From IMG/VR virus record IMGVR_UViG_3300027971_000028, positions 62,001 to 126,000 of that record: DNA of 64,000 bases. The stretch is one strand, 5' to 3'. Numbering within the stretch: position 1 is the stretch's first letter; each line of letters starts with the position of its first letter. The notes below the pieces were generated by a model, which saw nothing but the letters and a program-made list of their open reading frames with translations, searched no databases and was not told the DNA's origin. Both the position numbers and the translations under genes were made by a program. Positions 35,910-57,229 of the stretch are shown one piece after another. Origin of the DNA: a virus.

Positions 35910-35957
35910 ACGGAATGAGAGCGCGAAGAAACGTATTTTCAAAGCAAGGTATAATTA
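35910..35957 (+). promoter_or_regulatory. Repeated tail promoter element, copy 1
   Basis: ACGGAATGAGAGCGCG, then AAGAAAC, an AT stretch and TATAAT at 35950-35955. The first base of TATAAT is 24 bases after GCGCG. A C/T-rich tract (about 35872-35909) lies just upstream. Would drive 35979-37297. Confidence 0.75.
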
Positions 35958-35978
35958 AGCATCTAACAAAGGATTCCC

Positions 35979-36965
35979 GTGCCAATTCTTGGTTCTCAAT
36001 CTTCAGGTGCAAAAGCAGCCCCAGCCACTCCAACTATAGGAACACCAACTTTAACCAACTCAACAACAGTTTCAATTCCTTTCACCGCTCCTGATAGCAA
36101 ACTTCCAATTACCTCTTACACAACTACCTCCTCTCCTTCTATTGCCTTAACTACGTCAGGTACTTCTACTCCACTAACTGTTACTGGTTCATTTGTTGCA
36201 GGAACTACTTATACATTTACAATTACTGCAACAAACGCAAATGGAACTTCGTCTTCTTCAAGTACGTCTACTTCAGTTACTCCAGAAAAACCAGCGCCTA
36301 GTACAGTTTCAACAATGGGAGTAGGCGGTGGCGGTTGTGGTCAGTATACAAGTGCAGGCGGAGGCGGCGGAGGTGGTGGTGAAGTTTTAGTTAATAATAG
36401 TTTCTCTATAACTACAAATACTAACTATTCAATTAGTATTGGTGCAGGTGGAACAAATGCTCCAGTTGGTAATGGTCCACCTTTTGCATATAGCGGCGGC
36501 GCTAGTACAAGACTTGGTAGCAATGCCCGCGGCGGTATTTATGCAACTTGGGCGTATCCAAATTATGGTCAAGGTGGAGCATCTGGTAATGGTAATGACG
36601 GCAATGGCGGTGGTGGTGGCGGTGCTGGTGCTGCTTCAACTAGTGCAACAGGTGGTGCAGGAATTACTTATAACTCGGTAGAATATGGCAAGGGCGGTAG
36701 TACTGGCGGTGGTTCAGGTGCTGGTGCAAGGACTGGAGTTAACACTGGTGGTGGTGGTGGCGGAAGACAAGGTAACGACCAATTTGGAATTCCTTCACCA
36801 TATACCCCATGTTGGGGAAGAGATGGAGTGGTTATTGTGAGATATAGTGACACTTATAAGGATCCAACAATTGGTGGCGGACTAGTTTATACAAAAACTA
36901 CTGATGGTTCTACTTTAGTTTTTACATTTACAGCTGGCTCCGATAATATAAGTTGGGCAGCATAA
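35979..36965 (+). CDS. Fn3 plus polyglycine tail adhesin
   Basis: 328 aa, GTG start with RBS aaagga. Begins MPILGSQSSG, then an Fn3-like domain (about 15-110; TYTFTITATNANG), a glycine-rich domain (about 112-290) with end DGVVIVRY, and a C-terminal cap ending ISWAA, like 16379. It is on the opposite strand to most tail genes. TAATG coupling with 36965. Confidence 0.8.
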   Translation: MPILGSQSSGAKAAPATPTIGTPTLTNSTTVSIPFTAPDSKLPITSYTTTSSPSIALTTSGTSTPLTVTGSFVAGTTYTFTITATNANGTSSSSSTSTSVTPEKPAPSTVSTMGVGGGGCGQYTSAGGGGGGGGEVLVNNSFSITTNTNYSISIGAGGTNAPVGNGPPFAYSGGASTRLGSNARGGIYATWAYPNYGQGGASGNGNDGNGGGGGGAGAASTSATGGAGITYNSVEYGKGGSTGGGSGAGARTGVNTGGGGGGRQGNDQFGIPSPYTPCWGRDGVVIVRYSDTYKDPTIGGGLVYTKTTDGSTLVFTFTAGSDNISWAA

Positions 36966-37297
36966 TGGCACGCTACGCTATCCTAGATGAAAACAATTTT
37001 GTTATAAATATAATTGTAGGACGAGAGCCAGGAGAGTTGGTAAACGGAGTTTCAGACTGGGAAACTTATTACGGTGTTCATTTAAATAAAATGTGTAAAG
37101 TAACTTCTTACCCCAACTGGGCAGTTATTGGTGGGATATACGATACAGTGAACAATGTTTTTATCTCTCCACAACCTTTTCCTTCTTGGATCCGATCAGG
37201 TTCTTTCTGGGAAGCTCCAACTCCAAGACCAGAAGATGACAAATTTTACACTTGGGATGAAGACTCCCTTAGTTGGATAGAGCAAACTCAACCTTAA
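36965..37297 (+). CDS. MAxxAEID-type tail-associated protein, copy 4
   Basis: 110 aa from ATG 36965 (TAATG with the upstream stop; ORF extends back to 36953). ARYAILDENNFVIN, NKMCKVTSYPNW, ISPQPFPSW, AP-TPRPEDD and a Trp-rich end. Same family as 11647, 16023 and 18274, and again directly after an Fn3-polyglycine gene. Confidence 0.75.
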   Translation: MARYAILDENNFVINIIVGREPGELVNGVSDWETYYGVHLNKMCKVTSYPNWAVIGGIYDTVNNVFISPQPFPSWIRSGSFWEAPTPRPEDDKFYTWDEDSLSWIEQTQP

Positions 37298-37336
37298 CCA
37301 GTTTTAAATTTACTACCTATATCTCCGATTCCTTTT

Positions 37337-37384
37337 AGGGAACGAGAGCGCGAAAAAACAGATTTCAAATTCACGATATAATTA
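37337..37384 (+). promoter_or_regulatory. Repeated tail promoter element, copy 2
   Basis: AGGGAACGAGAGCGCG, AAAAAAC, AT stretch, TATAAT at 37377-37382, same 24-base spacing. RBS aggagc and ATG follow about 20 bases later. Confidence 0.8.
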
Positions 37385-37405
37385 GTAAATACTTTTAGGA
37401 GCCTC

Positions 37406-39109
37406 ATGCCCATTCTAGGAACGCAAGCCTCACAAAACACTAAATCATTCTTAGGTCTTGCTGTTGATTATTTAGTTGTTGCTGGTGGTGGTAGCGGAGG
37501 CTATTCTGGTGGCAATCCAAATGGTGGCGGTGGTGGTGGAGCAGGTGGTATGCGCTCTACAGTTACTGCTACTGGCGGTAGTGGTTCTTTAGAATCTGCT
37601 TTAACTTTATCTTTGAATACTAATCACACAGTTACGGTTGGTGCAGGTGGTGCTGGTGGTGTTGTTGTTGCCAATGGTAATAATTCAGTTTTTGCAACAA
37701 TTACTTCAACTGGCGGTGGTAGCGGTGCAGATTGGATTGCCCCAAACATAACACAAAATGGCAATGCTGGCGGTTCAGGTGGTGGCGGTACAGGCGGTTC
37801 AGGCTATACACCTCACGGCACAGGCGGTGCTGCTTCTCCTGCTGGTCAAGGTTTTGCAGGTGGTAATGCTTCAGGTACAGGTGGAAGTACAGCATCTGGC
37901 GGTGGTGGCGGTGGCGCTAGCGCAGTTGGAACTAATGGCGCAAGTGGCGCAGGTGGTTCAGGTGGTGATGGTAGAGCAACATCAATAAGTGGTTCATCAG
38001 TTACTTACGCTGGCGGTGGTGCATCTACTGGAACAAGTAGTGGTGGTACTGCAGGAACAGGTGGCGGCGGAACTGTAGGAAGTGCTGGAACCGCTAATAC
38101 AGGTGGCGGTGGAGGCGGTAGTTCTACAGGTAATAGTGGCAACGGCGGCTCAGGAGTTGTAATTGCACGCTACGCGGGAACTGAGCAAAAAGCATATGGC
38201 GGAACTGTAACAACATCTGGTGGAAATACAATTCACACATTTAATTCATCAAGTTCTTTTTATACAGGTTCTCCTAAAGCAAGTGGTGGAACAATTAGTT
38301 TTGCTAGTGGATATTTTTATCACGCATTTACATCGACTGGATCCTTTACTCTTACTCCGTCCGAGGCTTTAACTGTTGATGTTTTGGTAATCGCAGGTGG
38401 TGGTGGTGCTGCTGGTTATATATCCTCAGGATACGCAGGGTCATCAGGTGGTGGCGCTGGAGGTTTATTAAATTTTGCATCTGAAAGTCTTACAGCAAAT
38501 GCAGGATATACCGTAACTGTTGGCGCTGGTGGCGCTGGCGGAACAGCCAATACAAATAATGGTACTTCGGGTACTAATTCTCGATTTGGTAGTTTAACTA
38601 CAGTAGTCGGTGGTGGTTACGGCGTAAATAGATATGTAGCAGGTGGTGCACTTGCTGGTGGTAACGGTGGTTCAGGCGGAGGAGGTGCTGGAACTGCTGG
38701 TGGTTCTCCAACATCAGGGCAAGGAAATAGCGGTGGAAGTGCGATAGCAGTCAATGGTACTGGTGGAGGCGGAGGTGCTGGCGCCGCTGGTGGAAACTCA
38801 ACAACCGATAATGGTGGTAACGGTGGTGCTGGCATAAATACATATTCAACTTACGCAAGTGCAACCTCTACTGGAGTAAGTGGTTATTACGCAGGTGGCG
38901 GAGGCGGAGGAGTATACGCAAACGGAACTCCAGGTACAGGCGGCTCAGGTGGCGGTGGCAGTGCTGGCAGTAACTCTGCTGGTGTATCAGGAACCGCGAA
39001 CACAGGCGGTGGTGGTGGTGCGGCTAGTTATGCAAGCGGTATGGGAACTGTAAATGCAACAGGAGGCGCTGGTGGTAGCGGTTTAGTTATTGTTAGGTAC
39101 GCAGTCTAA
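37406..39109 (+). CDS. Double polyglycine tail adhesin
   Basis: 567 aa. Begins MPILGTQASQNTKSFL, the shared anchor peptide, then a first glycine-rich domain (about 20-255, end GSGVVIARY) and, after a beta hairpin (GGTISFASGYFYHAFTSTGSF), a second one (about 310-567, end GGSGLVIVRY). Same architecture as 45445 and 47654 on the other strand. Likely receptor-binding protein. Confidence 0.8.
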   Translation: MPILGTQASQNTKSFLGLAVDYLVVAGGGSGGYSGGNPNGGGGGGAGGMRSTVTATGGSGSLESALTLSLNTNHTVTVGAGGAGGVVVANGNNSVFATITSTGGGSGADWIAPNITQNGNAGGSGGGGTGGSGYTPHGTGGAASPAGQGFAGGNASGTGGSTASGGGGGGASAVGTNGASGAGGSGGDGRATSISGSSVTYAGGGASTGTSSGGTAGTGGGGTVGSAGTANTGGGGGGSSTGNSGNGGSGVVIARYAGTEQKAYGGTVTTSGGNTIHTFNSSSSFYTGSPKASGGTISFASGYFYHAFTSTGSFTLTPSEALTVDVLVIAGGGGAAGYISSGYAGSSGGGAGGLLNFASESLTANAGYTVTVGAGGAGGTANTNNGTSGTNSRFGSLTTVVGGGYGVNRYVAGGALAGGNGGSGGGGAGTAGGSPTSGQGNSGGSAIAVNGTGGGGGAGAAGGNSTTDNGGNGGAGINTYSTYASATSTGVSGYYAGGGGGGVYANGTPGTGGSGGGGSAGSNSAGVSGTANTGGGGGAASYASGMGTVNATGGAGGSGLVIVRYAV

Positions 39110-39118
39110 TTTTAAAAA

Positions 39119-39295
39119 ATGAAATATATAACTAAAAAATTAAATATAGACACCTTTTTATCTATACTTATAGCATCCTTATTTCTTATTCTTTTTTCAA
39201 ACCAATCTATGCGTCAAATACAGGTTGATTTTTGGGTAAATAATCCAAATCTAAATCCAGCAAATGGTCACATTAATACAACTAGTTTTAGATAG
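39119..39295 (+). CDS. Small membrane protein after adhesin
   Basis: 58 aa. Basic start (KYITKKLN), one membrane segment (about 12-28, FLSILIASLFLILFS) and a polar tail. Like 47295, it follows a double-polyglycine adhesin and has the same TM-then-polar layout. No clear RBS. Converges on the terminase gene after 5 bases. Confidence 0.55.
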   Translation: MKYITKKLNIDTFLSILIASLFLILFSNQSMRQIQVDFWVNNPNLNPANGHINTTSFR

Positions 39296-39300
39296 ATTTA

Positions 39301-40719
39301 TTAGTTAGCCTTAAAAACCCTAGATCCACCACCTCTACCACCCATACCTCCTCTAAAACTTGGAAGTCTTCTGGCGGCGGGAGATTTTGCGGTTAATTTT
39401 CCACCAATAAATCCTTTAGGTGGTTTAATAAGTAGAGCCGTTAAAGCATGAACTAGAGCATCTACTCTATCTGGAGATTTTCCTTCACCAGGAATCCATG
39501 CAGTCATTTGATCTTCTAACTCTGCAATGTATCCAATATGGTGAACTCTTTCTTGTTCATATGCAAGAACTACTGGCTCTGCTCTAAGTTGTTTTCCATG
39601 TTTAGAGTGAACTTCAAATACTTTTACATTTGGGTCAATAGCATTAATAGCATTAGTAACTAAGGCTCCACCCTGATTTACCTCTGCTACAACTGGTGCT
39701 CCCCAACGCCTAGCCATCTCTACAACTTTATTTGCCCAAACTTCAGGAGAACCATGAATAGTTGCATCCTCTAAAACCCAAGCGTGACGTTTATATAAAT
39801 CTCTATCTGCAGTTGATGCAACTACAACAATTCCACAAGCATCTCGTGGGTTCTCCGCTACGGATGGGTCAACTCCAATAACTCTTAAAGGAGTGTGTGG
39901 TGGTAAAACATTTTGTCTAGCCTTACTTATCATCTCTATTGTCCATAGTGCACCTTCAATAGAATCAAGCATCTCTCCATAAAGTTCCTGCTTTGCTAAT
40001 CTTGTTCCTTCATACACTCCCAAAATTGTGTCTAAATATGCAGAGCTTAAGTTTCCAGAGTTGTCCATAGTAGATCCTCTAGTAACAACAACTTTACTAC
40101 CTTTCTTTTCTTCTTCTAATAAAGAATAAAGAAGTGATACACGCTTTGGAGTTGTTGTAATCATAATTTGTGGATTAGCACCTAAACGAGTTCCAACACG
40201 TAAGTTATCAAAAGCAGTCATACCAGCAGCATCTGGAGTCTGGCGCCATGCAGCTACTTCATCCCCCCAAGCGTGGGTGAATTGCGGACCACGAAGTGAG
40301 TCTGGCTCATCTGCTGTAAAACAGGTAGCCGTATTTCCATTAGGCCAAGTTAAACGACGTTTAGATGGTTCATATAATGGACGCTCACTTGGTGGAGTCA
40401 CATTCATAATTCCTGATTCACCTTCAACAAGAACGTCACGTACATCTGCTGCAGTACGAGCAACAAGTGCAAAACGTCTTTGACCAGTGTTTGTATACTT
40501 TGCTGTTTCTCTTACCCACTCAGCCGCTGCTCTTGTTTTTCCAGCACCGCGACCAGCAAGATAAATCCAAATATTCCAATCACCCTCTGGTGCTTGTTGT
40601 TCTGGACGTGCCCATGAATGCCAATCCCAGAGAAGCATCTCTGGATCTAAGTCCGCCAATACTGCAGCTTTTTCTTCTGGAGATAAAAGAGATATCTTCT
40701 CCATAAAACTTTGTCCCAT
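39301..40719 (-). CDS. terL: Terminase large subunit
   Basis: 472 aa. Walker A AGRGAGKT (about 54-61), Walker B-like HAWGDEVAAW, and an RNase-H-fold nuclease start VIGVDPSVAENPRDACG (about 282-298) and DRVDALVHALT near the end. ATP-driven packaging motor with headful or cos nuclease. C-terminal tail is Gly/Arg rich. Starts 2 bases after 40722. Confidence 0.93.
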   Translation of the reverse strand: MGQSFMEKISLLSPEEKAAVLADLDPEMLLWDWHSWARPEQQAPEGDWNIWIYLAGRGAGKTRAAAEWVRETAKYTNTGQRRFALVARTAADVRDVLVEGESGIMNVTPPSERPLYEPSKRRLTWPNGNTATCFTADEPDSLRGPQFTHAWGDEVAAWRQTPDAAGMTAFDNLRVGTRLGANPQIMITTTPKRVSLLYSLLEEEKKGSKVVVTRGSTMDNSGNLSSAYLDTILGVYEGTRLAKQELYGEMLDSIEGALWTIEMISKARQNVLPPHTPLRVIGVDPSVAENPRDACGIVVVASTADRDLYKRHAWVLEDATIHGSPEVWANKVVEMARRWGAPVVAEVNQGGALVTNAINAIDPNVKVFEVHSKHGKQLRAEPVVLAYEQERVHHIGYIAELEDQMTAWIPGEGKSPDRVDALVHALTALLIKPPKGFIGGKLTAKSPAARRLPSFRGGMGGRGGGSRVFKAN

Positions 40720-44186: not shown

Positions 44187-44837
44187 TTATTTCCTTAAAT
44201 AAATATGTCGTACAGTTGATGGATACCACTTAACTCCGCCTAAAACTGTATTTATTCCTTCGCTGTTAAGTTTTTCTGCTATTGCTTTATAAGAAAGACC
44301 TAAAGTTCTCTCAGATAATATTCTCTCTGATATTGATTTTTCAACTAAAGGCAGTGGTCCTAAGTCAACTCCCCATACTTTTTTATTATCACGTCTATCT
44401 TGATGAACATCTTTTTGGCGAAGTGAAATCATTCCTCTTTCCATCTCTGCCATGGCACTCATTATGGTTACTACAAACCGTCCCTGGTAGGTAGCAGTAT
44501 CTAAACCAAGATCAAGAAGTGCTAGACGCCATCCGTATTTATGTGAACGATCAACAATGCTAAGAAAGTCTCTAGTAGAACGAGCAAGTCTGTCAAGACG
44601 TGTGACGAACAAAGCCTCTGCTTCACCTTTATCAAGACTCTCTAATGCAGCAGTTAATACAGGTCGCCCAGTTATGTTCTTACCTGAACGACCCTCTTCA
44701 CGAAGCATTTCTACTTCATACCCCTGAGACTCCGCTGCATACTTAAGTTGCTTTTCTTGGGCATCTAGACTCACCCCATCGTCAACCTGCATCTGAGTAG
44801 ATACTCTTGCATAGCAATAGGCTATTTTTTTATCCAC
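44187..44837 (-). CDS. Serine recombinase (resolvase/invertase type)
   Basis: 216 aa. Catalytic domain with the nucleophile in ARVSTQ (Ser about residue 13), REEGRSGK, RLDRLARS (about 79-86) and helix E region (AMAEMERGMISLRQ). C-terminal HTH (YKAIAEKLNSEGI). Close in size to Tn3 resolvases and Gin/Hin invertases, far smaller than large phage integrases. Inverted tail-gene copies flank it on both sides. Could flip or resolve cassettes. Confidence 0.88.
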   Translation of the reverse strand: MDKKIAYCYARVSTQMQVDDGVSLDAQEKQLKYAAESQGYEVEMLREEGRSGKNITGRPVLTAALESLDKGEAEALFVTRLDRLARSTRDFLSIVDRSHKYGWRLALLDLGLDTATYQGRFVVTIMSAMAEMERGMISLRQKDVHQDRRDNKKVWGVDLGPLPLVEKSISERILSERTLGLSYKAIAEKLNSEGINTVLGGVKWYPSTVRHIYLRK

Positions 44838-45444: not shown

Positions 45445-47199
45445 TTAGACTGCGTACCTTATTATAACGATACCTGAACCGCCTGCTGCACCTGCACAGC
45501 CATTACCTGAGCCAGCACCACCGCCACCACCAGTATTTGGTAATCCTGGCTCCGCATAACTTTCAGCATTAGCATTAAATACAGCATCACCACCGCCGCC
45601 ATTACCACCAGCACCTTGATTAGTTTTGTTTGGACCTCCAGTAGATGTTCCTGAGGCTCCACCGCCACCACCAGCGTACCAATAGGTTCCACTTACATTT
45701 TCGCCAGTTCCAGTCGCAACGCCCCAACTTGAGTATGCAGATGAACCAGCACCGCCATTACCACCTGCAGTACCTGTTGAAGCTTGTCCAACTCCTCCAG
45801 CTCCACCGCCGCCACCTGCTCTATCTACTTGATTACCACCAGCGCCACCAGCATAACCTTCTACCGGTGAATAACCGCCCGCGTTGCCACTTCCTCCAGT
45901 TCCAGAAATTCCATTTGCTCCACCACCTGAGCCACCTGAGCGACCTGAACCAGCACCATAAGAAGCAGCACCACCTCCACCAGTTGTACTTATTGTAGAA
46001 AATCCTGAGCCAGCAATAGAAGATGTAGTACCATCTCCTGCTTGTTGTCCATCAGTGTTGTTTCCAGCACCACCAGCGCCAACAGTAATTGTATAAGCAG
46101 TAGCGTTGTTGAATGACTGAGAAGTTAGTCCTCTAAGACCACCTGCTCCACCTCCACCACCAGTTCTTCCACCACCTCCGCCTCCTGCAATTACAAGAAC
46201 TTCTGCTCCTGTTATGTTTTGACTTGGAGTAAATGTTTCTGACTTAGAAAAATAATGATACCAATAAGTACCATCTACACTAATTGAGCCACCCGTGGCT
46301 TTTGGAGAATTAGTTGCTGAAGCTGCAGACAAAATTCCTGTCGATGTGAATGTGTGAATTGTCTTGCCGTCTTGTGAAGTTACAGTTCCACCAGTTCTTA
46401 CTTGTGGGCCTGCATAACTAATAATTACTAAACCTGAGCCACCACTTCCTCCGGTATAACTAGCACCATACTCACCGCCACCTCCGCCTCCACCGCGATT
46501 TTCAGTGCCTGATGTAGGAACATTACCAGTACTACCACCACTTCCACCGCCACCAGTACCACCAGCACCTCCACTTTGTCCATTGCTACTTCCACCACCT
46601 CCGCCACCTGCGTAGGTAATTGATGAACCACTAATTGAAACTGCTACACCTGCGCCACCAGGAGCGCCTGCACCACTAATTTGTGTGCCAGCTGCCCCTG
46701 CTCCTCCGCCAGAGCCGCCGCCGTAAGCAATATTGTAACTTCCTGCGTAAGAGCTACCTCCGTTATATCCTTGATTAGCTACTCCAAAACCATACCTGCC
46801 ATAACGAGCATGAGTAGCACCACCACCACTACCTCCGTGCATTGTGCCATTAACATCTACATCATTACCAACAGCGCCACCGCCGCCGCCACCGCCATAA
46901 GCAACAATGTTAGCGAATGATGAGTTTTCCCCTACAAAACCATTTCTGCTACCAGTACTAGCACCGGCGCCACCTGCACCTACTACTACAAGATAATTAA
47001 CATTGTTCAAAATATCTATTTTTGACTCTAAAGAACCGCCACCACCGCTTGCAGTTACAGTTGAACGTAAACCACCAGCACCTCCGCCACCTGCGGCGTT
47101 ATGCCCACCGCCACCTCCGCCTGCAACAACAAGGTAGTCAACAGAGACAGATAAAAATGATTTAGTATTTTGAGATGCTGCTGTTCCTAGAATTGGCAT
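45445..47199 (-). CDS. Double polyglycine tail adhesin
   Basis: 584 aa. MPILGTAASQNTKSFL start, glycine-rich domains about 20-265 (end GSGLVIISY) and 320-584 (end GGSGIVIIRY), separated by a beta hairpin (GTYWYHYFSKSETF). Same build as 37406 and 47654. Under promoter copy 3. Confidence 0.8.
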   Translation of the reverse strand: MPILGTAASQNTKSFLSVSVDYLVVAGGGGGGHNAAGGGGAGGLRSTVTASGGGGSLESKIDILNNVNYLVVVGAGGAGASTGSRNGFVGENSSFANIVAYGGGGGGGAVGNDVDVNGTMHGGSGGGATHARYGRYGFGVANQGYNGGSSYAGSYNIAYGGGSGGGAGAAGTQISGAGAPGGAGVAVSISGSSITYAGGGGGGSSNGQSGGAGGTGGGGSGGSTGNVPTSGTENRGGGGGGGEYGASYTGGSGGSGLVIISYAGPQVRTGGTVTSQDGKTIHTFTSTGILSAASATNSPKATGGSISVDGTYWYHYFSKSETFTPSQNITGAEVLVIAGGGGGGRTGGGGGAGGLRGLTSQSFNNATAYTITVGAGGAGNNTDGQQAGDGTTSSIAGSGFSTISTTGGGGAASYGAGSGRSGGSGGGANGISGTGGSGNAGGYSPVEGYAGGAGGNQVDRAGGGGGAGGVGQASTGTAGGNGGAGSSAYSSWGVATGTGENVSGTYWYAGGGGGASGTSTGGPNKTNQGAGGNGGGGDAVFNANAESYAEPGLPNTGGGGGAGSGNGCAGAAGGSGIVIIRYAV

Positions 47200-47218: not shown

Positions 47219-47267
47219 TAATTATACCTTGATTTTAAAAACTCGTTTTTTCGCGCTCTCGTTCCGT
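47219..47267 (-). promoter_or_regulatory. Repeated tail promoter element, copy 3
   Basis: Minus strand: ACGGAACGAGAGCGCG, AAAAAAC, AT stretch, TATAAT at 47221-47226; spacer 25 bases, one more than most copies. Drives 45445. Confidence 0.8.
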
Positions 47268-47345
47268 TAAAAGAAAAAGAGGAGGCAGCAGGGTTTAGGA
47301 GGGAAGGATTAGGAAGGAGTAGGGATTGAGGGGGGAGGTTTTTTG
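47268..47345 (-). promoter_or_regulatory. C/T-rich, G-poor tract upstream of promoter copy 3
   Basis: On the transcribed (minus) sense this is an almost pure pyrimidine, C-rich stretch that also codes the last residues of 47295. Similar tracts sit before the other copies: about 35872-35909, 49354-49389, 50345-50420, 54060-54110, 55114-55138, 56814-56855 and 57230-57275. Possible Rho-loading site. Confidence 0.4.
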
Positions 47346-47654
47346 TTTGGTTTTTTTAAGGAGTGTGTTGTAGTAATCAACCAGCGTTGTGATTTTCTCA
47401 TTTGCTCTATCTACATCTCGCTTGTGAGCATCTTGCTCACGGATTAGTTGAAGAGAGTTACTAGCAATAATATCGCTGGTGTATTTAATGCAGTAGTTAG
47501 ATTGACCGATGGTCATCTTTCTTTGGTCAGCAAGATTTGAAGATTGAACTAGCAAGGCTGTTATTAGAAGAACTATAAATATAGATAAAGCCTGAATTGT
47601 TATTTTTGGGTTTATACTAATTCTTTTAGACTTTTGTTTATCTACTGATGGCAT
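47295..47654 (-). CDS. Small membrane protein after adhesin
   Basis: 119 aa. Basic start, one membrane segment (about 22-40, ALSIFIVLLITALLV) and a coiled-coil region (about 65-110). TAATG coupling with the adhesin 47654. Counterpart of 39119. Its last residues are coded in the C/T-rich tract. Confidence 0.6.
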   Translation of the reverse strand: MPSVDKQKSKRISINPKITIQALSIFIVLLITALLVQSSNLADQRKMTIGQSNYCIKYTSDIIASNSLQLIREQDAHKRDVDRANEKITTLVDYYNTLLKKTKQKTSPLNPYSFLILPS

Positions 47655-49285
47655 TAGACTGCGTACCTTACGATCACGATTCCTGAGCCACCAGCACCAC
47701 CTGCACCGCCGTCGCCACCACCTCCACCACCGCCACCGCCACGATTTGCTGTGCCGTTGCTTCCAGTTTGTCCACCGTTGCCGCTATTACCACTGCCAGC
47801 GCTACCTGGCGTTACGCCGTAACTACCACCACCTCCGCCGCCGCCTCCAGCATATGTAATTGACGAACCACTAATGCTATTTGATAAACCATTACCACCA
47901 TTGCCTGAATAGGAACCAGAACCTCCACCACCTGCTGCACCTGCACCACCACCACCGCCAGCAGATGTACCAATACCTTGACCACCATTATTTCCTTGAC
48001 CACTTGGCGAGGCTAAACCTAAATTAGAATTGCCACCACCCCAGCCTCCTCCACCACCAGAGCCACCGTTATTTGCACCGCCGCCAGGTCCAGACCCACC
48101 ACCACCACCTGTAGATGTAACTGTTGAAAATATAGAATTACTGCCACTTGATCCATTACCATAACTACCGACGCCGCCACCCGATCCACCAGCACCAACT
48201 GTTACTGTGTAGGCCTGTGCAGTTAAAGATAATTGAGAACCACCAATAGAAGTTCTATATCCACCTGCTCCTCCTCCGCCACCATTACTTCCACCTCCTC
48301 CACCTCCAGCAACTACTAAGTAGTCAGCATATAATGCTTCAGTTGGGGTAAATGAGAATGTTCCTGTTGATAAAAATGTATGAACAAAATAATTAGTTCC
48401 ACCAGATGAGTAAAAACTAATATCTCCACCTGTTGCTTTAGCAAGAGCAGTAATAAAATTACCTGAGGATGTAAATGTATGAATTGTATTTCCACCAGAT
48501 GTTGTGACTGTTCCGCCAGTTGCTTTTTGCTCAGTGCCTGCGTAGCGAGCAATTACAATTCCTGAGCCGCCTGCGCCCCCGGCGGGAGAACCACTTTGTG
48601 AACTATTACCACCGCCACCTCCGCCAGTATTTGCAGTTCCAGAACTACTTGGAGCATTGCCACCTCCACCTAAGCCACCAACTCCGTTAAGTCCATTTTG
48701 TCCTCCACCGCCACCACCCGCGTAGTAAGAAGATGAACCTGTTATTGAGTTTGCTTTACCAATTCCTCCGTTAGGTGCATTACTTCCAGTAGAAGTTACT
48801 CCTGCAGCACCTGCTCCGCCGCCGCCACCACCTGCACCACCACCAGTTCTACCATTACCACCTACATTACCAAAACCTAAACCTGAATATGTATTTTGAG
48901 TTGTTGCACCGCCGCCGCCAACACCACCATACTCACCGCCGCCTCCGCCTGAACCACCAGAAATACCGTTTACTCCACCGCCACTCCAAGTACCTCCACC
49001 GCCACCACCAGTTGCAGTATAAATTGAACCAAATGTTGAATCAATTCCACTATTCCCCCTATCTCCATTACCTACACCACCAGCGCCACCAGCGCCTACG
49101 CTTATTGAATAACTTGTTAAGAAATCTAATCCATATTCAGTAGAGTAAACATATCCACCTGCTCCTCCTCCGCCGCCGTTATACCATGCACCTCCACCGC
49201 CACCACCTGCAACTACAAGTAAATCAACTTTTAGATTAAGAAAAGATTTACTGTTTTGTGAGGCTTGCGTTCCTAGAATTGGCAT
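47654..49285 (-). CDS. Double polyglycine tail adhesin
   Basis: 543 aa. MPILGTQASQNSKSFL start. Two glycine-rich domains (about 20-250, end GSGIVIARY; 310-543, end GGSGIVIVRY). The first 30 bases of the gene are almost identical to those of 37406 on the other strand. Under promoter copy 4. Confidence 0.8.
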   Translation of the reverse strand: MPILGTQASQNSKSFLNLKVDLLVVAGGGGGGAWYNGGGGGAGGYVYSTEYGLDFLTSYSISVGAGGAGGVGNGDRGNSGIDSTFGSIYTATGGGGGGTWSGGGVNGISGGSGGGGGEYGGVGGGGATTQNTYSGLGFGNVGGNGRTGGGAGGGGGGAGAAGVTSTGSNAPNGGIGKANSITGSSSYYAGGGGGGQNGLNGVGGLGGGGNAPSSSGTANTGGGGGGNSSQSGSPAGGAGGSGIVIARYAGTEQKATGGTVTTSGGNTIHTFTSSGNFITALAKATGGDISFYSSGGTNYFVHTFLSTGTFSFTPTEALYADYLVVAGGGGGGSNGGGGGAGGYRTSIGGSQLSLTAQAYTVTVGAGGSGGGVGSYGNGSSGSNSIFSTVTSTGGGGGSGPGGGANNGGSGGGGGWGGGNSNLGLASPSGQGNNGGQGIGTSAGGGGGAGAAGGGGSGSYSGNGGNGLSNSISGSSITYAGGGGGGGGSYGVTPGSAGSGNSGNGGQTGSNGTANRGGGGGGGGGDGGAGGAGGSGIVIVRYAV

Positions 49286-49305: not shown

Positions 49306-49353
49306 TAATTATATCGCAGTTTGAAAACTCGTTTTTTCGCGCTCTCGTTCCGT
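49306..49353 (-). promoter_or_regulatory. Repeated tail promoter element, copy 4
   Basis: Minus strand: ACGGAACGAGAGCGCG, AAAAAAC, AT stretch, TATAAT at 49308-49313; 24-base spacing. Drives 47654 and 47295. Confidence 0.8.
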
Positions 49354-49389
49354 TATAGGAGGAAGAGGCAAAGATAAAAAGGGGGAGGG

Positions 49390-50274
49390 TTAAAAGGTTA
49401 TGGTTCCTGTAGCGTTAAATTGGTAGTAAACATAATTACCATAACTACCAGATACTGGATCACCAGATGTAGACACTGCTGCTCTTGAAGTACGAATAAT
49501 TACTACACCACTACCTCCGCCACCACTTGCTGGACCGCAGTAATGCAAACCATTTCCACCGCCGCCAGTATTCGCTGTGCCACCGCCGCCATCATAAGTA
49601 TCACCAGTAGGAGAGTTTTGAGCGCTTCCTCCGCCGCCGCCTGCTCTACCAACAGATGTTCCAGTTATAGATGATGAAACACCTACTCCACCATCGCCAC
49701 CTTTATTGGTTCCAGAACTACCTCCAGTAGCGTTACCTCCCACTCCACCTGCTCCACCTCCGCCACCTTGATTATAATTACCAAAAGGATTGACTGGGTT
49801 TCCACCATTTGTATTTGTACCACCACCATAACCTTGTCCTGAAGTACCAGCGCCACCTGAATAAGTTCCAGATGTACCACCTGCGGCACCGCTACCTGAA
49901 CCACCAGTAAAACCAGCACCAACAGCAACTGAACTACTTCTACCTCTAGCGCCACCAAGTGATGTTATGGTTGTTATACCAGAGCCAGAAAAAGATGAAT
50001 TATTACCTTGAGTACCATTACTAGTCATTGTGCTAGTCCCACCAGCGCCAACTGTTGCTGTATAAGTAACTCCTGCAATTAAAGTTATCATTGATTCAGC
50101 ACCTGCGCCACCACCACTTGATTCACCAACTACTGAAGATCTATAGCCACCTGCTCCAGCGCCAGCGCCACCGCAAAAACCACCGCCTCCTCCGCCTGCA
50201 ATAACAATGTATTCAACTTGGACATCTAGAAATGATTTGCTGTTTTGTGAAGCGGAAGTTCCAAGAAGAGGCAT
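49390..50274 (-). CDS. Polyglycine tail adhesin
   Basis: 294 aa. MPLLGTSASQNSKSFL start, one glycine-rich domain (about 20-268, end SGVVIIRT) and a short beta C-end (GNYVYYQFNATGTI). Single-domain relative of 47654. Under promoter copy 5. Confidence 0.8.
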   Translation of the reverse strand: MPLLGTSASQNSKSFLDVQVEYIVIAGGGGGGFCGGAGAGAGGYRSSVVGESSGGGAGAESMITLIAGVTYTATVGAGGTSTMTSNGTQGNNSSFSGSGITTITSLGGARGRSSSVAVGAGFTGGSGSGAAGGTSGTYSGGAGTSGQGYGGGTNTNGGNPVNPFGNYNQGGGGGAGGVGGNATGGSSGTNKGGDGGVGVSSSITGTSVGRAGGGGGSAQNSPTGDTYDGGGGTANTGGGGNGLHYCGPASGGGGSGVVIIRTSRAAVSTSGDPVSGSYGNYVYYQFNATGTITF

Positions 50275-50296: not shown

Positions 50297-50344
50297 TAAT
50301 TATACCTTGCTTTAAAAACGTGTTTCTTCGCGCTCTCATTCCGT
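50297..50344 (-). promoter_or_regulatory. Repeated tail promoter element, copy 5
   Basis: Minus strand: ACGGAATGAGAGCGCG, AAGAAAC, AT stretch, TATAAT at 50299-50304; 24-base spacing. Very close to copy 1. Confidence 0.8.
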
Positions 50345-50345
50345 A

Positions 50346-50585
50346 CTAAGAAAGAGAATCGGGATAATTTTCAGGGTTATCGATAATTAAAAGGTTAGGA
50401 AGGTTGGGAGGGATGGAGTGTCCAATTTTTTTGTGGGCGCTAAGGTGGTCAATCATTTCTTGCGTTGACTCTGCACAGAAGGAAGCCTCTAACTCGTCAC
50501 CAAAATAACACATTGCGCACACTACGCCGCGACCAGGAATTGAATACACGTAAACATCCGACTCGCTGAACTTAGAATAAATCAT
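50346..50585 (-). CDS. Hypothetical protein with possible zinc site
   Basis: 79 aa. CAMCYF near residue 23 and HLSAHKKIGH near residue 47 could form a C2H2-like zinc site. Ends in the C/T-rich tract. The ATG is 7 bases after an extended -10 box, so the message is probably leaderless. Confidence 0.6.
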   Translation of the reverse strand: MIYSKFSESDVYVYSIPGRGVVCAMCYFGDELEASFCAESTQEMIDHLSAHKKIGHSIPPNLPNLLIIDNPENYPDSLS

Positions 50586-51271: not shown

Positions 51272-51427
51272 CTACAGTTCTTTTACAAGTTTGGCAATAT
51301 ATGCAATAACCTCGGAAGGACGCCAAGAACTATCAACTTCAAGTTCTGCTATTTGAACAGCCAGTGCTTTCTTATCTACATGATTATCAAAACAGCCCCA
51401 GCCGTATTTAGGCTCTAATTCATTCAT
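51272..51427 (-). CDS. Small hypothetical protein
   Basis: 51 aa. ATG overlaps the stop of 51424 (ATGA). Trp-rich start (EPKYGWGCFDNH) and amphipathic helix. Its stop codon lies in the loop of a perfect 9-bp hairpin (51261-51269 with 51278-51286), which may end the transcript. Confidence 0.5.
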   Translation of the reverse strand: MNELEPKYGWGCFDNHVDKKALAVQIAELEVDSSWRPSEVIAYIAKLVKEL

Positions 51428-51972
51428 AATCTTTTTCCTATCCACTCAACTACATTTGCTGTAACCGCGTTTCCCATTTGTTTATACCTAGCCGAATCTG
51501 ATTGATCCCCAGTCCAATCATCTGGAAATCCTTGTAATCTCTCGCACTCCTTAGGAGTAAGTCTTCTGACTGTTGTTGAGAAACTAACTGCTTGATGTGA
51601 AATTGTGTCAACGGTATATGCAGGAGCACCAGCCTGTGCTACTCCTAGCCCGTTTTGTTTTTTATCAAGTTCTCTAGCATCTTGAATTGGTGTAACTGAT
51701 ACAGCGTGAGCAGAGGATGTGTCTACAGTAAACATTGGATCTTCCACTTCACCATATCCTTTCCCTTGAGGACCAGCAGTATCTGCTCTACCAATTACAG
51801 TGTTTTGAATAGAGTGAACAATTGTTACTACTGCTCTAGAGTCTCCGCTGTTATCAAAAGCATTCAAGGTAGGACAAATAACTTTCTCACGCCAAACTTC
51901 TGGTGGCAATGTTCCATCTTCATACCTTGCACCACTTCTAATTACTTTGACGAACCACGATGTCTGTAACAT
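51424..51972 (-). CDS. Cytosine-C5 methyltransferase, C-terminal part (split gene)
   Basis: 182 aa. Linker text typical of these enzymes (CPTLNAFDNSGDSRAVV), then motif IX (RRLTPKECERLQGFP) and motif X (RYKQMGNAVTANV). It lacks the catalytic half, which is in 51938. The two overlap by 35 bases in different frames; a +1 shift there would make one protein. Either a split enzyme, a programmed shift or a broken gene. Confidence 0.8.
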   Translation of the reverse strand: MLQTSWFVKVIRSGARYEDGTLPPEVWREKVICPTLNAFDNSGDSRAVVTIVHSIQNTVIGRADTAGPQGKGYGEVEDPMFTVDTSSAHAVSVTPIQDARELDKKQNGLGVAQAGAPAYTVDTISHQAVSFSTTVRRLTPKECERLQGFPDDWTGDQSDSARYKQMGNAVTANVVEWIGKRL

Positions 51973-52666
51973 CTTTATAGTCCCTCGCTTTCAAAGTAGA
52001 TGAAACAGTATCTACTTCGTAATCTCCGAAGCCTCGCATCCTTGCAACAGTGCTTTTTCCAGCGCTGGTGGAAGAGTTTTTCCGCGACGAGTTGCTCGAC
52101 GCATTATTCCTTCGCATGCTTTCGGACTCAATAAGTATCGGGGACTTACTTCTGTCTCTAGTACTTCCAACAATGAAGACTCGACGGCGTCGTTGGGGGA
52201 CTCCGAAGAATTGCGAATCCAAAACTCGCCATTCGATGTGGCTATACCCTGAGTTGGCCATTTCAGAGATGACGACTCCAAAATCGCGTCCTTCGTTGCT
52301 TGATAAAAGTCCTGGCACATTTTCCAAGACGATAGTGTGTGCTTTGACTTCTTGCGCAAATCGTATTGCGTCCCAGAAGAGTCCACTTCTTGCCCCAGCG
52401 ATACCAGCACGCTTTCCAGCGACGCTAACATCTTGGCACGGGAATCCTCCGCAGACAATGTCAACTTTTCCAATTAAGTTAATCTCCTTTGCCCACTCGA
52501 TGGCGGTCTTAACATCATCATGTAATGGGATGTCAGGCCAATGTTTTTTTAATATCTTCTGAGCATTCTTATCTATTTCTACTTGACCAACGCATGTATG
52601 TCCTGCTTTTTCAAAGCCAAGATCAAAACCACCAACGCCAGCAAATAAAGAAACAAATGTGCTCAC
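51938..52666 (-). CDS. Cytosine-C5 methyltransferase, catalytic N-terminal part
   Basis: 242 aa, GTG start (GTGA overlap). Motif I FVSLFAGVGGFDLG, motif IV catalytic GGFPCQDVSVAGKR (Cys about residue 77), motif VI VLENVPGL and motif VIII QRRRRVFIVG. Motifs IX and X are missing here and come from 51424 or 52663. The region after motif VIII is odd, Ser/Arg/Asn-rich, and overlaps another ORF. Likely methylates DNA to avoid restriction. Confidence 0.88.
   Translation of the reverse strand: MSTFVSLFAGVGGFDLGFEKAGHTCVGQVEIDKNAQKILKKHWPDIPLHDDVKTAIEWAKEINLIGKVDIVCGGFPCQDVSVAGKRAGIAGARSGLFWDAIRFAQEVKAHTIVLENVPGLLSSNEGRDFGVVISEMANSGYSHIEWRVLDSQFFGVPQRRRRVFIVGSTRDRSKSPILIESESMRRNNASSNSSRKNSSTSAGKSTVARMRGFGDYEVDTVSSTLKARDYKDVTDIVVRQSN
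52012..52473 (-). CDS. Alternate-frame ORF inside the methyltransferase
   Basis: 153 codons on the same strand as the methyltransferase, in another frame. Contains LKWPTQGIATSNGEFW and PRYLLSPKACEGIMRRATRR, which recall phage/prophage proteins (YYLSxxACxGILRRA) seen with Dcm genes. If real, both frames are under selection; it may also be a by-product of conserved Dcm codons. Confidence 0.35.
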   Translation of the reverse strand: MEKLTLSAEDSRAKMLASLESVLVSLGQEVDSSGTQYDLRKKSKHTLSSWKMCQDFYQATKDAILESSSLKWPTQGIATSNGEFWIRNSSESPNDAVESSLLEVLETEVSPRYLLSPKACEGIMRRATRRGKTLPPALEKALLQGCEASEITK

Positions 52667-52944
52667 AAGCGACTACCTAACCATGTTGCAACATTTACAG
52701 TTACAGCATTACCTAGTTGTTTATACCTATGCGTATCCGCTTCGGTACTAGTCCATCCTAAAGGAAACCCCTGCAGAGTCTCGCACTCTTCAGGGGTGAT
52801 TCTTCTAATATTTTCTCTAGCAACCATGGACATATTTAACCCACCAGTTCCCATAAAACTGGTGAGCGTATTTATCGTATCTCCTTGAATCCTAAAGCCA
52901 TCTGACCTGTGAGGATGAAAAACAATTACCTCTTCTTGGCTCAA
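52663..52944 (-). CDS. Orphan C-terminal methyltransferase fragment
   Basis: 93 aa, TTG start. Target-region linker (DTINTLTSFMGTGG) plus motif IX (RRITPEECETLQGFP) and motif X (RYKQLGNAVTVNV), without a catalytic half. It lies before the N-terminal half, so the order is C-N-C. Could be a second, alternative C-terminal part or the remnant of a neighbouring enzyme. Overlaps the genes on both sides by 4 bases. Confidence 0.7.
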   Translation of the reverse strand: MSQEEVIVFHPHRSDGFRIQGDTINTLTSFMGTGGLNMSMVARENIRRITPEECETLQGFPLGWTSTEADTHRYKQLGNAVTVNVATWLGSRL

Positions 52945-53555: not shown

Positions 53556-53564
53556 TAGATGCAA

Positions 53565-53652
53565 ATAGTATCAGGGCCTTTACAAAAAGTGCAAACTGGG
53601 TATCTTCCTGACTTTTTAAGCGTTTGACAAAGGGTATCTAGGCTTATACCCT
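53565..53652. promoter_or_regulatory. Two divergent sigma70-type promoters
   Basis: Minus: TTGCAC (53589-53594), 18-base spacer, TACTAT (53565-53570). Plus: TTGACA (53624-53629), 17 bases, TACCCT (53647-53652), within an inverted repeat GGGTAT / ATACCC. Both lie a few bases from the start codons, so both messages may be leaderless. Confidence 0.6.
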
Positions 53653-53658
53653 ATCTAC

Positions 53659-53778
53659 ATGGCTAAAAAAGATAAGTTTTATGACGAGGCAGCAGGTCCT
53701 ACCTTATTTAGAATCTTTTTAAGAGCCTTGGTAATTGCAGTAATTATGTGGTTAATTCAAAGAATTGGTAACTCTTAA
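53659..53778 (+). CDS. Small membrane protein
   Basis: 39 aa. Polar start (AKKDKFYDEAAG), one membrane segment (about 18-35, IFLRALVIAVIMWLI). ATG is 7 bases after the -10 box. Too short for standard gene calls, but has its own good -35. Confidence 0.5.
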   Translation: MAKKDKFYDEAAGPTLFRIFLRALVIAVIMWLIQRIGNS

Positions 53779-53783
53779 GAGTA

Positions 53784-53984
53784 TTACTCTTTAGATTCTC
53801 CGTTATATAAAGAAACAGCATCAACAAGATTAGTAACTCTACTTGTTACGTATCCGCCTTCTTTATCTAACTTATCTTTAGCAGCCTGCTCATTCTCTGC
53901 AAGAACTTGAACAACCATAGTTACTGCATAGGTATAGCACTTAGTTGAATCTTTTTCCTTTGTCTTTGTATCTTGCTTTGCCAT
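53784..53984 (-). CDS. Small hypothetical protein
   Basis: 66 aa. TYAVTMVVQVLAENEQAAKDKL and GGYVTSRVTNLVDAVSLY. The pattern looks familiar from actinophages, but I know no function. RBS agaggg; a degenerate copy of the tail promoter lies upstream. Confidence 0.6.
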   Translation of the reverse strand: MAKQDTKTKEKDSTKCYTYAVTMVVQVLAENEQAAKDKLDKEGGYVTSRVTNLVDAVSLYNGESKE

Positions 53985-54017
53985 TTGAGTCCCTCTTTCA
54001 TAGGAGTTATTACTTGA

Positions 54018-54059
54018 AGGATAGCAGATAAAGTGCGATTTTTCAGGCGCCCTGTCCGT
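54018..54059 (-). promoter_or_regulatory. Degenerate copy of the repeated tail promoter
   Basis: Minus strand: ACGGACAGGGCGCC, GAAAAATCG and TATCCT at 54018-54023; about 6 bases shorter than the others. A C/T-rich tract lies upstream. Confidence 0.4.
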
Positions 54060-54142
54060 GATAGGAGGCAGAGGAAGAGATTAGGAGGGGGAGGGGTGCA
54101 TGCTTTTTGAGGCGTCTTTACGAGACATAAAAACGTTGGTTA

Positions 54143-55045
54143 TTAAATAGTAGTATATCCGTAATAAATGATCTGCGATGCGCCACTGGTATTAGCAATT
54201 GTAAAGTCAAACCTATTACTACTTGTACCCGAGTATGTAGCGTCTGTGCTAATAGTACCTGCTACTCCTCTAATCTGATTAGGTATGGCAGTTAATGAAA
54301 TAGGACTTCCGCCGCCAGTGTAGTTCCAAGCATATTGATATCCTATTGCTGCTACATTAGCATTTGACACACTGGCTGTAGCGTTCCAAACTATAATACC
54401 GTTAGGTATATTTCCCTTGACCCACATGGTGTATGTGCCACCACTTGGAACTTCAAAATTGTAGGTGTTAGTGCCTGTGGCAATAGTCCATGAGCCTGTA
54501 GTAGCAGCTGAACCTGTAGCACCAGTAGGTCCAGTATTTCCAGTAACACTTGCACCTGTTACACCTGTATTACCAGTTGCTCCCGTTGCACCAGTCTGAC
54601 CAGTTGCACCAGTGTTACCAGTGCCAGTTGGACCAGTTGCACCTGTACTTCCTATATTACCAGTTGCTCCTGTTGCACCTGTCTGCCCTGTTTCACCTAA
54701 CGCACTGCTCGACGACTCCAGCCAAAATCCGTCGTAGTACACAAACATAGTTGCAGAGTTAGGATCAAACCAAACGTCACCTGTTTCAGCACCTGTTGGA
54801 GCTGTAGTTTCAGCGGTAGAGAATACTCCGTTGTCTCCTGTTGTGCCCGTTGCTCCTGTGTTGCCAGTTGGACCGTTTGTTCCAGTTACGCCTGTTGCAC
54901 CGTTTGTTCCAGTTGCACCAGTTGCGCCTGTGCTACCGACCGCACCTGTTGGTCCAAGCCATACCGTGCCATTCCAACGCCAAGTAATTGATCCGGATGA
55001 GAACGTTTGATTTAACGATGGGGAATCCGGGAAGTTAATTGGCAT
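54143..55045 (-). CDS. Collagen-like tail fibre
   Basis: 300 aa. [16 protein letters not shown] start as in 21292, Gly-X-Thr runs (about 32-72 and 125-178) around the insert [18 protein letters not shown], and a C-terminal beta domain (about 180-300). Y positions nearly all Thr. Under promoter copy 6. Confidence 0.82.
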
Positions 55046-55065
55046 AAGGCTCCTTAAAAGATAGT

Positions 55066-55113
55066 CAATTATATCTTGAATTTAAAATGCGTTTTTTCGC
55101 GCTCTCTTTCCGT
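55066..55113 (-). promoter_or_regulatory. Repeated tail promoter element, copy 6
   Basis: Minus strand: ACGGAAAGAGAGCGCG, AAAAAAC, AT stretch, TATAAT at 55068-55073; 24-base spacing. Confidence 0.8.
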
Positions 55114-55138
55114 AAGAGGAAGCGGAAGAGAGGGGGGG

Positions 55139-55636
55139 TTAGGAGTTTTTGATTCCGTATAGGTGAAAGGTTGAACTGGTTTCAAAATTTCCACTAAGTT
55201 TTACAGAAGTTATTGCTGAAGTATTAGACCATAAACCAGCGGCTAACATAGTATACGCTTCATTATTTGCGTTATTTTCTGAAACAGAATCAATTGAAAT
55301 TGATTTATGTTGTGAACCAGTATAGTTTGTAATATAAATTTGAACATTTCCAAATGTGTTTGCAGTAGCAGATGATTTTGGCAAACCTACTAAAACTACA
55401 TTGCCACTGTAAGACCCATTAGTTACTGAACCATTTTCTCCCCAAACCCATCTGCCCTGTAAATTAGCGCTGCTTCCATTTATTTCTGAAATTTCTGAGT
55501 CAGGTGAACCAGTTGTGCTACGGGCAGACATTAAAATACATAAATGAGTATAGGTTGCAGGTATTGAAGTAAATGTAACACTCGCGGCTGAACTACCTAA
55601 AGTATTAGCCTGTATCAAAGTAAATGTATTTGCCAT
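55139..55636 (-). CDS. Beta-sandwich tail protein, cassette gene 3
   Basis: 165 aa. FTLIQANTLGSSAASVTF, FTSIPATYTHLCIL, FHLYGIKNS end. Same family as 57276 and the N-terminal half of 12069. TAATG coupling with 55636. No glycine-rich part. Confidence 0.72.
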   Translation of the reverse strand: MANTFTLIQANTLGSSAASVTFTSIPATYTHLCILMSARSTTGSPDSEISEINGSSANLQGRWVWGENGSVTNGSYSGNVVLVGLPKSSATANTFGNVQIYITNYTGSQHKSISIDSVSENNANNEAYTMLAAGLWSNTSAITSVKLSGNFETSSTFHLYGIKNS

Positions 55637-56136
55637 TATGCAGTCAAAATTCCGTAGAGTGAAAAGGTTGAGCCTGAATCAAAATTTGAAGCACTTGTAG
55701 GAGTTAATACTATAGAAGTAATTGCCGCTGTATTTCTCCAAACACCTGCATAAGCAATTGTTATTGTTGAGGCAGCACTACCTCTTGATAAAACATTTTT
55801 GTAAGTTGTAGTGTTTGAATAATTTTGAAAGTGAGTTATGCCAGCAGCATACTCTGTTGCGTGATGTCGTGCAATAAGAACTCCACTTGAATTATTGGTA
55901 CTACCTGAAGACGCACTTGACCCAGTGCCATAAACATATACTGTTGAATAATTACTACCTGTGTCAGAATTAAATTGACACGTTATATCATTGGTGTCTG
56001 CAGAGATATCACTTGATGCTGATGTTATTAAAATTAAATCAGTATAACTTCCGCTAATACTAGAGAAGGTAATGCTTGAGGCAGGACTACTCAAAGTATT
56101 TGTCGCTATTGGTTCGTATGTTCCGCCTGCAGCCAT
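55636..56136 (-). CDS. Beta-sandwich tail protein, cassette gene 2
   Basis: 166 aa. YEPIATNTLSSPASSITFSS, SYTDLILITSA, FSLYGILTA end. Same family as 57803 and the first half of 13429. Follows 56139 after 2 bases. Confidence 0.72.
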   Translation of the reverse strand: MAAGGTYEPIATNTLSSPASSITFSSISGSYTDLILITSASSDISADTNDITCQFNSDTGSNYSTVYVYGTGSSASSGSTNNSSGVLIARHHATEYAAGITHFQNYSNTTTYKNVLSRGSAASTITIAYAGVWRNTAAITSIVLTPTSASNFDSGSTFSLYGILTA

Positions 56137-56138
56137 TG

Positions 56139-56741
56139 TTATACCCCCTTAATTCCGTAGAGAGCAAGTTGTGAGTACTGTTTGAAAGGTGATGAAGTAC
56201 CAAGTGCTTCTATAGTTATAGAGGTTATAGCACTGGTGCTTGTCCATAGGCCAGACTTAAATGACACGCTTGAAGCGTTGTAACCATTAATTGTATTTGC
56301 ATTTGTACTTATTCCTTCTATAGTTCTAAGAACTTTATTTTTATTTGTAGAGCTATAATTCAAAATTTCTGTAATGAATGTACCAAAAAATGGTGCAGCA
56401 GCAACGCCTGGTATGGCGCTTAAATAAAGGAAATCTCCTAACCCCTCTGTAGCAGCATATGCACGAGGGGGAGAATCGTTAATACTGGATCCTAAAATAT
56501 GGTCTCTATAGTTTGAGCCTGTATCACTGTTAAATCTAAGAGTTCCATATCCACTTGGTTGTGGACCTGGTCTACTACCTTGCAATATCCCTCTTATCTG
56601 CAGATGCATAAAAGTTTGTGGTATTGAACTAAAGGTAATAGTTGATTGACCACCCGCGCCTACTGTTGTTGTTGCAATAGACTCGAAGGAGCCAAAGGAT
56701 TTGCCTGAAAACTGCGAAGCAATCGTACCTAGAATATTCAC
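56139..56741 (-). CDS. Beta-sandwich tail protein, cassette gene 1
   Basis: 200 aa, GTG start. NILGTIASQFSGKSFGSFES, then FSSIPQTFMHLQIRG and the end LALYGIKG. Related to 58309 and 14733. The anchor-like start recalls the MPILGTxASQ peptide of adhesins. Under promoter copy 7. Confidence 0.72.
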   Translation of the reverse strand: MNILGTIASQFSGKSFGSFESIATTTVGAGGQSTITFSSIPQTFMHLQIRGILQGSRPGPQPSGYGTLRFNSDTGSNYRDHILGSSINDSPPRAYAATEGLGDFLYLSAIPGVAAAPFFGTFITEILNYSSTNKNKVLRTIEGISTNANTINGYNASSVSFKSGLWTSTSAITSITIEALGTSSPFKQYSQLALYGIKGV

Positions 56742-56765
56742 GCGGCTCCTAATGAAAGATAGTTA

Positions 56766-56813
56766 ATTGTATCGCAGAAAGTAAAAGTTTATTTTTTCGC
56801 GCTCCCGTTCCGT
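56766..56813 (-). promoter_or_regulatory. Repeated tail promoter element, copy 7
   Basis: Minus strand: ACGGAACGGGAGCGCG, AAAAAAT, AT stretch, TACAAT at 56766-56771; spacing 26 bases. Drives the 56741-55139 cassette. Confidence 0.7.
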
Positions 56814-56855
56814 AAGAGGAAGAAGAGACGGAAAAAAGGGGAGGGAGGGGGGGGA

Positions 56856-57173
56856 TTAAGGTCCGAATGTCCAAGCGTTAACTGACCCTTTTTTTGCTTT
56901 TGCATAAAGAAAATCTTTTTCTGCTTGTATGCCTACAATTCTAAATGTCATTTGATTTATGTTTGAAAGATTAATAATTCCTTTACCGTTGCGAACTAAA
57001 GAAAATTTAATGTTTTCATATGCATTATCTTCTGATGTAGCAAATGTTCCAAACGTTATGTCTCCTGGAGCAAGTGGGTGAGACCCTAACATTAAGTATT
57101 GTCTTAATTCTTTTTCATCTTCTTTTTTCATCTCTAAACCCCTATCACTTCCTACGCTAATCATTTCGGTCAT
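56856..57173 (-). CDS. Hypothetical protein under tail promoter
   Basis: 105 aa from ATG 57173; the longer ORF would begin inside the promoter. This start is 8 bases after TATACT, so it may be leaderless. Mixed fold (DITFGTFATSEDN, MTFRIVGIQAEKDF). No family seen. Confidence 0.55.
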   Translation of the reverse strand: MTEMISVGSDRGLEMKKEDEKELRQYLMLGSHPLAPGDITFGTFATSEDNAYENIKFSLVRNGKGIINLSNINQMTFRIVGIQAEKDFLYAKAKKGSVNAWTFGP

Positions 57174-57180
57174 GGGCAGA

Positions 57181-57229
57181 AGTATACACATATCTTGTAA
57201 AAATGCGTTTTTTCGCGCTCTGTGTCCGT
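57181..57229 (-). promoter_or_regulatory. Repeated tail promoter element, copy 8
   Basis: Minus strand: ACGGACACAGAGCGCG, AAAAAAC, AT stretch, TATACT at 57181-57186; spacer 27 bases. The -10 is weaker than in other copies. Confidence 0.65.

Follow-up and report, generated by a model that had tools for sequence, protein, structure and literature searches.

A block of approximately 21 kb within the window, the 64,000-base stretch analyzed here (G000:C1:62001-126000 of a 133,336-base virus record), carries nine copies of a repeated element, referred to below as the box, and all nine sit between genes of the same reading direction. A search with ACGGAACGAGAGCGCG allowing up to three mismatches returns eight matches where 0.03 are expected by chance, and the eight copies on both strands described in an earlier, sequence-only reading were all found in place. 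The check proposed with that reading, a scoring matrix run over the full genome, was carried out with a matrix from which the window copies had been left out. It recovers all eight and adds a ninth, degenerate copy (TCACGGACAGGGCGCCTGAAAAATCGCACTTTA; 54061-54029, −) that scores 23 bits versus a maximum of 13 in Markov-shuffled genomes, indicating that the original count was incomplete. No further copies were found elsewhere in the full 133,336-base record.

On the plus strand, the boxes at 35908-35940 (TTACGGAATGAGAGCGCGAAGAAACGTATTTTC) and 37335-37367 precede the tail genes 35979-36965 and 37406-39109, respectively. On the minus strand, the boxes at 47237-47269, 49323-49355, 50314-50346, 55083-55115, and 56783-56815 precede the tail genes 45445-47199, 47654-49285, 49390-50274, 54143-55045, and 56139-56741, while the box at 57199-57231 precedes a hypothetical ORF (56856-57191) and the degenerate copy at 54029-54061 precedes a 66-aa non-tail ORF (53784-53984). 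The box at 50314-50346 directly follows the stop codon of a zinc-finger-like ORF. Seven of the nine copies are upstream of tail genes, and the original observation that all but the copy at 57181 precede such genes holds for the eight copies it covered (7/8 ahead of tail-type genes). The window also contains two overlapping minus-strand ORFs (51424-51972 and 51938-52666) whose products correspond to the C-terminal and the N-terminal part, respectively, of a single C-5 cytosine DNA methylase; these represent a split gene, a frameshifted gene, or an assembly error.

Eight of the window boxes are accompanied by a second, shorter element. For the first six tail genes in the order given above, this is a TATAAT hexamer (35950-35955 and 37377-37382, +; 47221-47226, 49308-49313, 50299-50304, and 55068-55073, −) that lies 24 bp after GCGCG in five copies, including the first, and 25 bp after it in one (47267, −). 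The copy at 56813 (−) is followed by TACAAT 26 bp after GCGCG (56766-56771), and that at 57229 (−) by TATACT 27 bp after GCGCG (57181-57186), 7 nt before the ATG of the hypothetical ORF, where a promoter of the leaderless type is predicted. The initial description of TATAAT as usually 24 bases after GCGCG is thus accurate, with five copies at 24 and the rest at 25-27. The tail genes start approximately 50-56 nt downstream of the box and have their own Shine-Dalgarno (SD) sequence. The tail gene 58309-58872 (−) has TATAATTA, including TATAAT at 58896-58901 (−), an SD, and first codons as in its paralogue 56139-56741 (−), without a box. Both of these paralogues begin MNILGTIASQF, and the box is found only at the 56139-56741 locus. 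The box and TATAAT are separable modules; consequently, the 48-bp promoter initially described as a single element merges two.

The repeat itself is real, but its conserved unit extends further upstream than was first described and includes a C/T-rich, G-poor tract that was missed. Across relatives, this unit consists of the tract followed by TAACGGAANGRGAGCGCGAAAAAACGNNTTTT. The tract ends at the box in most window copies, and composition scans place it at 35869-35913 (+) and, on the minus strand, at 47266-47340, 49350-49403, 54056-54103, 56807-56870, and 57230-57283. At the strict setting, with both strands counted, six of the eight such tracts in the record adjoin boxes and the remaining two are located elsewhere. 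An upstream tract is common among the sites collected from relatives (see below), where C recurs at every third base (-26, -23, -20, -17, and -14). The composition of the tract (C-rich and G-poor) agrees with that of a Rho utilization site, and the tract possibly loads Rho and serves as the terminator of the preceding gene. An RNA hairpin formed by tract and box was considered and rejected, as matched and swapped arms fold alike (-10.06 vs -10.12 kcal/mol). No structured RNA family from Rfam was found in 35000-60500 except one tRNA.

The terminase relatives of this virus include Actinomycetia phage DSL-LC01 (76%, Dishui Lake) and Microbacterium phages, and WhiB genes are present in 16 of the 17 records tested; therefore, the host is likely an actinobacterium. 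Because DSL-LC01 comes from Dishui Lake, the habitat of this host is most likely fresh water, and the family would comprise large phages that most likely infect freshwater actinobacteria. The same 40 bases occur near both ends of the record (G000:C1:33-72 and 132611-132650), and this match, from a comparison that covers these 40 bases, suggests a direct terminal repeat of approximately 750 bases and a complete genome.

Scans of IMG/VR for the box returned many additional sites, and 77 non-redundant ones that share its core were retained, of which 10 are tail sites, 16 have a start codon next to the box (a class set by a loose rule, some members of which also carry a -10), and 51 are others. 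Two placements are seen in relatives: the box lies 18-29 bp before a TANNNT -10, often with a leaderless start, or it lies against a start codon (stop-box-ATG). Among the 51 other sites, 17 contain TANNNT-N5-7-ATG/GTG with an open frame versus 0.5 in shuffles, a comparison to which no strict probability attaches because the sites are mutually related. These results bear out the proposal of an oriented, repeated cis-signal at gene starts with a -10-like hexamer. Within most records the box is spelled almost uniformly, whereas its spelling varies from lineage to lineage (GAGCGCG in G000, G005, and G007; GAGCCCGG in G022, G023, and G034; GCGCCCGG-type in G017-G019; GAAGGCGCG in G025), with G003, in which spellings are mixed, as the exception. 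BLAST of the box consensus against annotated phages gave matches at chance level only, and in a loose-pattern scan of bacterial genomes the best-scoring among the matches listed had no C/T tract.

The -10-like hexamers that follow the box at many sites, the 17 non-tail sites resembling leaderless promoters, and the location of most window copies ahead of tail genes could reflect a phage-specific promoter class, with the box as a site for an activator or an alternative sigma factor beside TATAAT and with late tail genes as its targets. This explanation is unlikely. The -10 is 24-26 bp after GCGCG in tail copies versus 18-20 or 27-29 bp (once 24) at non-tail sites with a TANNNT start, a variable spacing that speaks against a rigid -35-like role. 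In some other relatives the box abuts ATG, and no promoter lies between the two. Furthermore, the box in relatives precedes many non-tail genes (the gene downstream in L018 is, as read from its translation by eye, an apparent GIY-YIG-type endonuclease) and the tail paralogue described above has TATAAT without a box, such that the idea of a late regulon of tail genes is not sustained.

The search for a sigma factor points in the same direction. No sigma70 region-2 gene was found in 17 records, and the region-4 search returned one match over the cut-off, in the box-negative record G020, together with a weak match inside a 2103-aa frame of G000. Due to the variable spacing and the lack of a region-2 gene, a rigid -35/sigma site is disfavored. 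A trans-acting factor is plausible, as the activator or alternative-sigma proposal supposed, but its sigma half agrees poorly with these searches and with a spacing of 18-29 bp. A search with PF00940 (T7-type RNA polymerase) gave no match, although the controls gave none either. WhiB was rejected as a specific reader of the box, as two to three WhiB genes are found in records with and without boxes. A small serine recombinase (44187-44837, −) is also encoded in the window and is a conceivable user of the box; this protein is conserved in box-positive and box-negative relatives and is consequently not specific to the box.

The second placement raises the question of whether the box acts in mRNA, as has been proposed for the start-associated sequence (SAS) of Cluster K phages. 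The SAS is a 13-bp GGGATAGGAGCCC-like motif located within approximately 3-8 bp of the start codon (PMC3203893). In G005, G022, G023, and G034, the box separates the stop codon of a gene from the start of the gene that follows. This start is conserved between L458 and G005, and the sites of this stop-box-ATG/TTG class have a GGAG-like core at SD distance. The GGGAATGGGAGCCC variant of G022 and G023 also resembles the published SAS core GGGATAGGAGCCC (PMC3203893), a sequence likeness that does not imply homology. Most sites are not start-adjacent, however, and leaderless transcripts would exclude the box altogether. In the window, the real start is found approximately 50-56 nt downstream of the box and is served by an SD of its own; under a translational reading, those copies that show ACG where the start codon would be expected would have to be relics or act through short upstream reading frames. 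Translation is thus an improbable explanation of the element as a whole, somewhat more so than the promoter class. For the cassette reading preferred below, it is a difficulty that a single DNA-level mechanism is hard to fit, as the same element is an upstream promoter part at some sites and abuts the start codon at others.

Several repeated elements of other phages offer points of comparison. Stoperators of Cluster A (L5) phages are repressor-bound 13-bp sites, asymmetric repeats in short intergenic regions that are oriented with transcription. The window box is likewise asymmetric, intergenic, and oriented with transcription, but it is longer and is tied to gene starts. Early-promoter/stem-loop cassettes of the T4 type are regulatory units that likewise recur at junctions between genes, in places where modules are exchanged; they differ from the present element in host and sequence, and the tract-box stem had no support in the folding test. 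Stoperators are also named in the work describing the Cluster K motifs (PMC3203893), which are closer. The SAS, with its extension (ESAS), is an asymmetric motif found 11-19 times per genome at the starts of non-structural genes, where it follows the direction of transcription (PMC3203893, PMC11373665). The ESAS adds a 17-bp imperfect inverted repeat ahead of the SAS; this extension contains a putative SigA-type promoter, with -35 and -10 sequences, and differs between subclusters (PMC3203893, PMC11373665). The window element is found at places comparable to the SAS, but because of its distance from the start codon (start-adjacent placement is found only in some relatives) it is not filed as one. 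With regard to the ESAS, the -10 here follows the box without the constant spacing of a -35, and on inspection of the box alignments by eye no conserved inverted repeat was noticed, a C/T-rich tract being present instead. The linked C2H2-type gene described below is a further difference from Cluster K.

Microbacterium phages, which are also among the terminase relatives, contain repeats of 18 bp (Cluster EC) and 30 bp (Cluster EI) of unknown function in small intergenic regions, and Cluster EF has an SAS (GGGAAAGGACCCC) (PMC7302621). The EC copies are asymmetric, share one orientation, and are located 21-30 bp upstream of start codons, and phages of both clusters encode a sigma factor (PMC7302621). 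The window box is similarly intergenic. Its sequence differs from those of the EC and EI repeats, no sigma factor gene was found here, and a C2H2 partner is not reported for EC/EI (PMC7302621). The nearest known kinds are the SAS/ESAS of Cluster K, the SAS of Cluster EF, and the intergenic repeats of Clusters EC and EI, and the box cassette appears similar in kind to SAS/ESAS and the Cluster EC motifs.

A candidate reader of the box is encoded within the box block itself (50346-50585, −). Comparison of ORFs in 13 records identified one family present in all nine box-positive records and in none of the four box-negative ones, a 79-aa C2H2-type protein. All 11 sequences of this protein that were compared share C23, C26, H47, and H51, and an AlphaFold2 model (pLDDT 85.9) places both His residues in a helix comprising residues 41-53, suggesting a zinc-finger-like protein of C2H2 type with predicted zinc binding. 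Searches of Pfam, PHROG, PDB, and viral folds gave no convincing match and no known DNA-binding family. The box directly follows the gene for this protein in G000, G005, and L148 and lies ahead of it in G017, G019, and L016. All 30 loci fetched by the protein alone contain boxes, including 12 outside the matrix set, while 4 Mb of shuffled sequence contains no box matches. Among 38 records, 11 have the protein together with boxes and none has the protein without boxes; in one fragment, G027, two boxes are present at the end but the protein is not, and a few other records have a single box-pattern match, at least some of which are chance-like.

Variants of the protein sort roughly with the spelling of the box, a sorting that is confounded by ancestry. 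On the terminase tree, the paired trait (box and protein) needs only two changes; common descent is therefore a sufficient explanation for the pairing and may be all that lies behind it. Alternatively, the protein may belong to the regulon without being its reader. Even so, the pattern of occurrence suggests that the 79-aa protein is the leading candidate, and it is a better-supported box factor than a sigma factor.

Homology to close relatives raises a further alternative, in which the repeats are kept by homologous recombination that shuffles accessory and tail genes at a boundary or mobile cassette, with any regulation secondary. Homology between close relatives spans the box, the promoter, and the first codons and then stops, and long homology blocks with G006 and G007 end at boxes (35987, 50290, and 54080). 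These are three of approximately 12 long-block ends, the only ones within 80 nt of a box, and the lineage-specific spelling of the box together with its partner gene suggests recognition. In the corresponding block of box-negative relatives, different promoter/RBS units recur, which counts in favor of this alternative. As a primary explanation, recombination is about as improbable as translation.

The units of the box-negative relatives are distinct in sequence. DSL-LC01 has no box and contains another unit, CTAAAGATGTTATAAT, in 27-31 copies depending on the pattern, upstream of the terminase, with ACGACGAAAGGACAA before ATG/start codons in the same block. Many of the CTAAAGATGTTATAAT copies (L324/L325, OQ999401.1, approximately 18-44 kb) are flanked by GATT...GAATC, and in the annotation of OQ999401.1 the CTAAAGATGTTATAAT and ACGACGAAAGGACAA repeats are absent from the listed features. 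Upstream of the terminase in the box-negative relatives L066 and L072, -10/RBS-like units are found (AAATACCTGTTATAAT approximately 15 times in G021; TGATATAATAGTACTA approximately 10 times in L072).

The best reading of the element is that the box belongs to a lineage-specific control cassette and not to a tail-gene promoter. We give about an even chance to the proposal that the junctions within an accessory-gene block carry this repeat as a control cassette, with a phage factor as its probable reader. On the transcribed strand, the stop codon of the preceding gene would be followed by the C/T-rich tract, the asymmetric box of approximately 33 bp, and the start signal of the next gene, which would be a -10 with a leaderless start, the TATAAT and SD of a tail gene, or a start codon directly. 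The tract would possibly terminate the preceding transcript by loading Rho, while the box would regulate expression, most likely by binding a phage-encoded factor that would have shifted in specificity along with the phage lineage. The 79-aa C2H2-type protein, whose gene lies among the boxes, is the leading candidate for this factor and hence for the protein that would bind the box. The sequence shared by all cassettes would, in addition, make them recombination boundaries where the bodies of downstream genes exchange.

Knowledge of repeated start-associated motifs in actinophages goes back to 2011, and we know of no established function or reader for them. Here, the spelling of the box is specific to lineages and a single small protein closely co-occurs with it, which makes the question of the reader directly testable by binding. 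The block that contains the boxes also holds tail-appendage genes, which likely differ between close relatives. It is possible, though we regard it as tentative, that a tiny C2H2 protein is dedicated to reading an asymmetric box that co-evolves with it at the junctions of an accessory regulon. If true, this would represent self-contained phage regulation unlike the repressor, sigma, or WhiB systems of actinophages.
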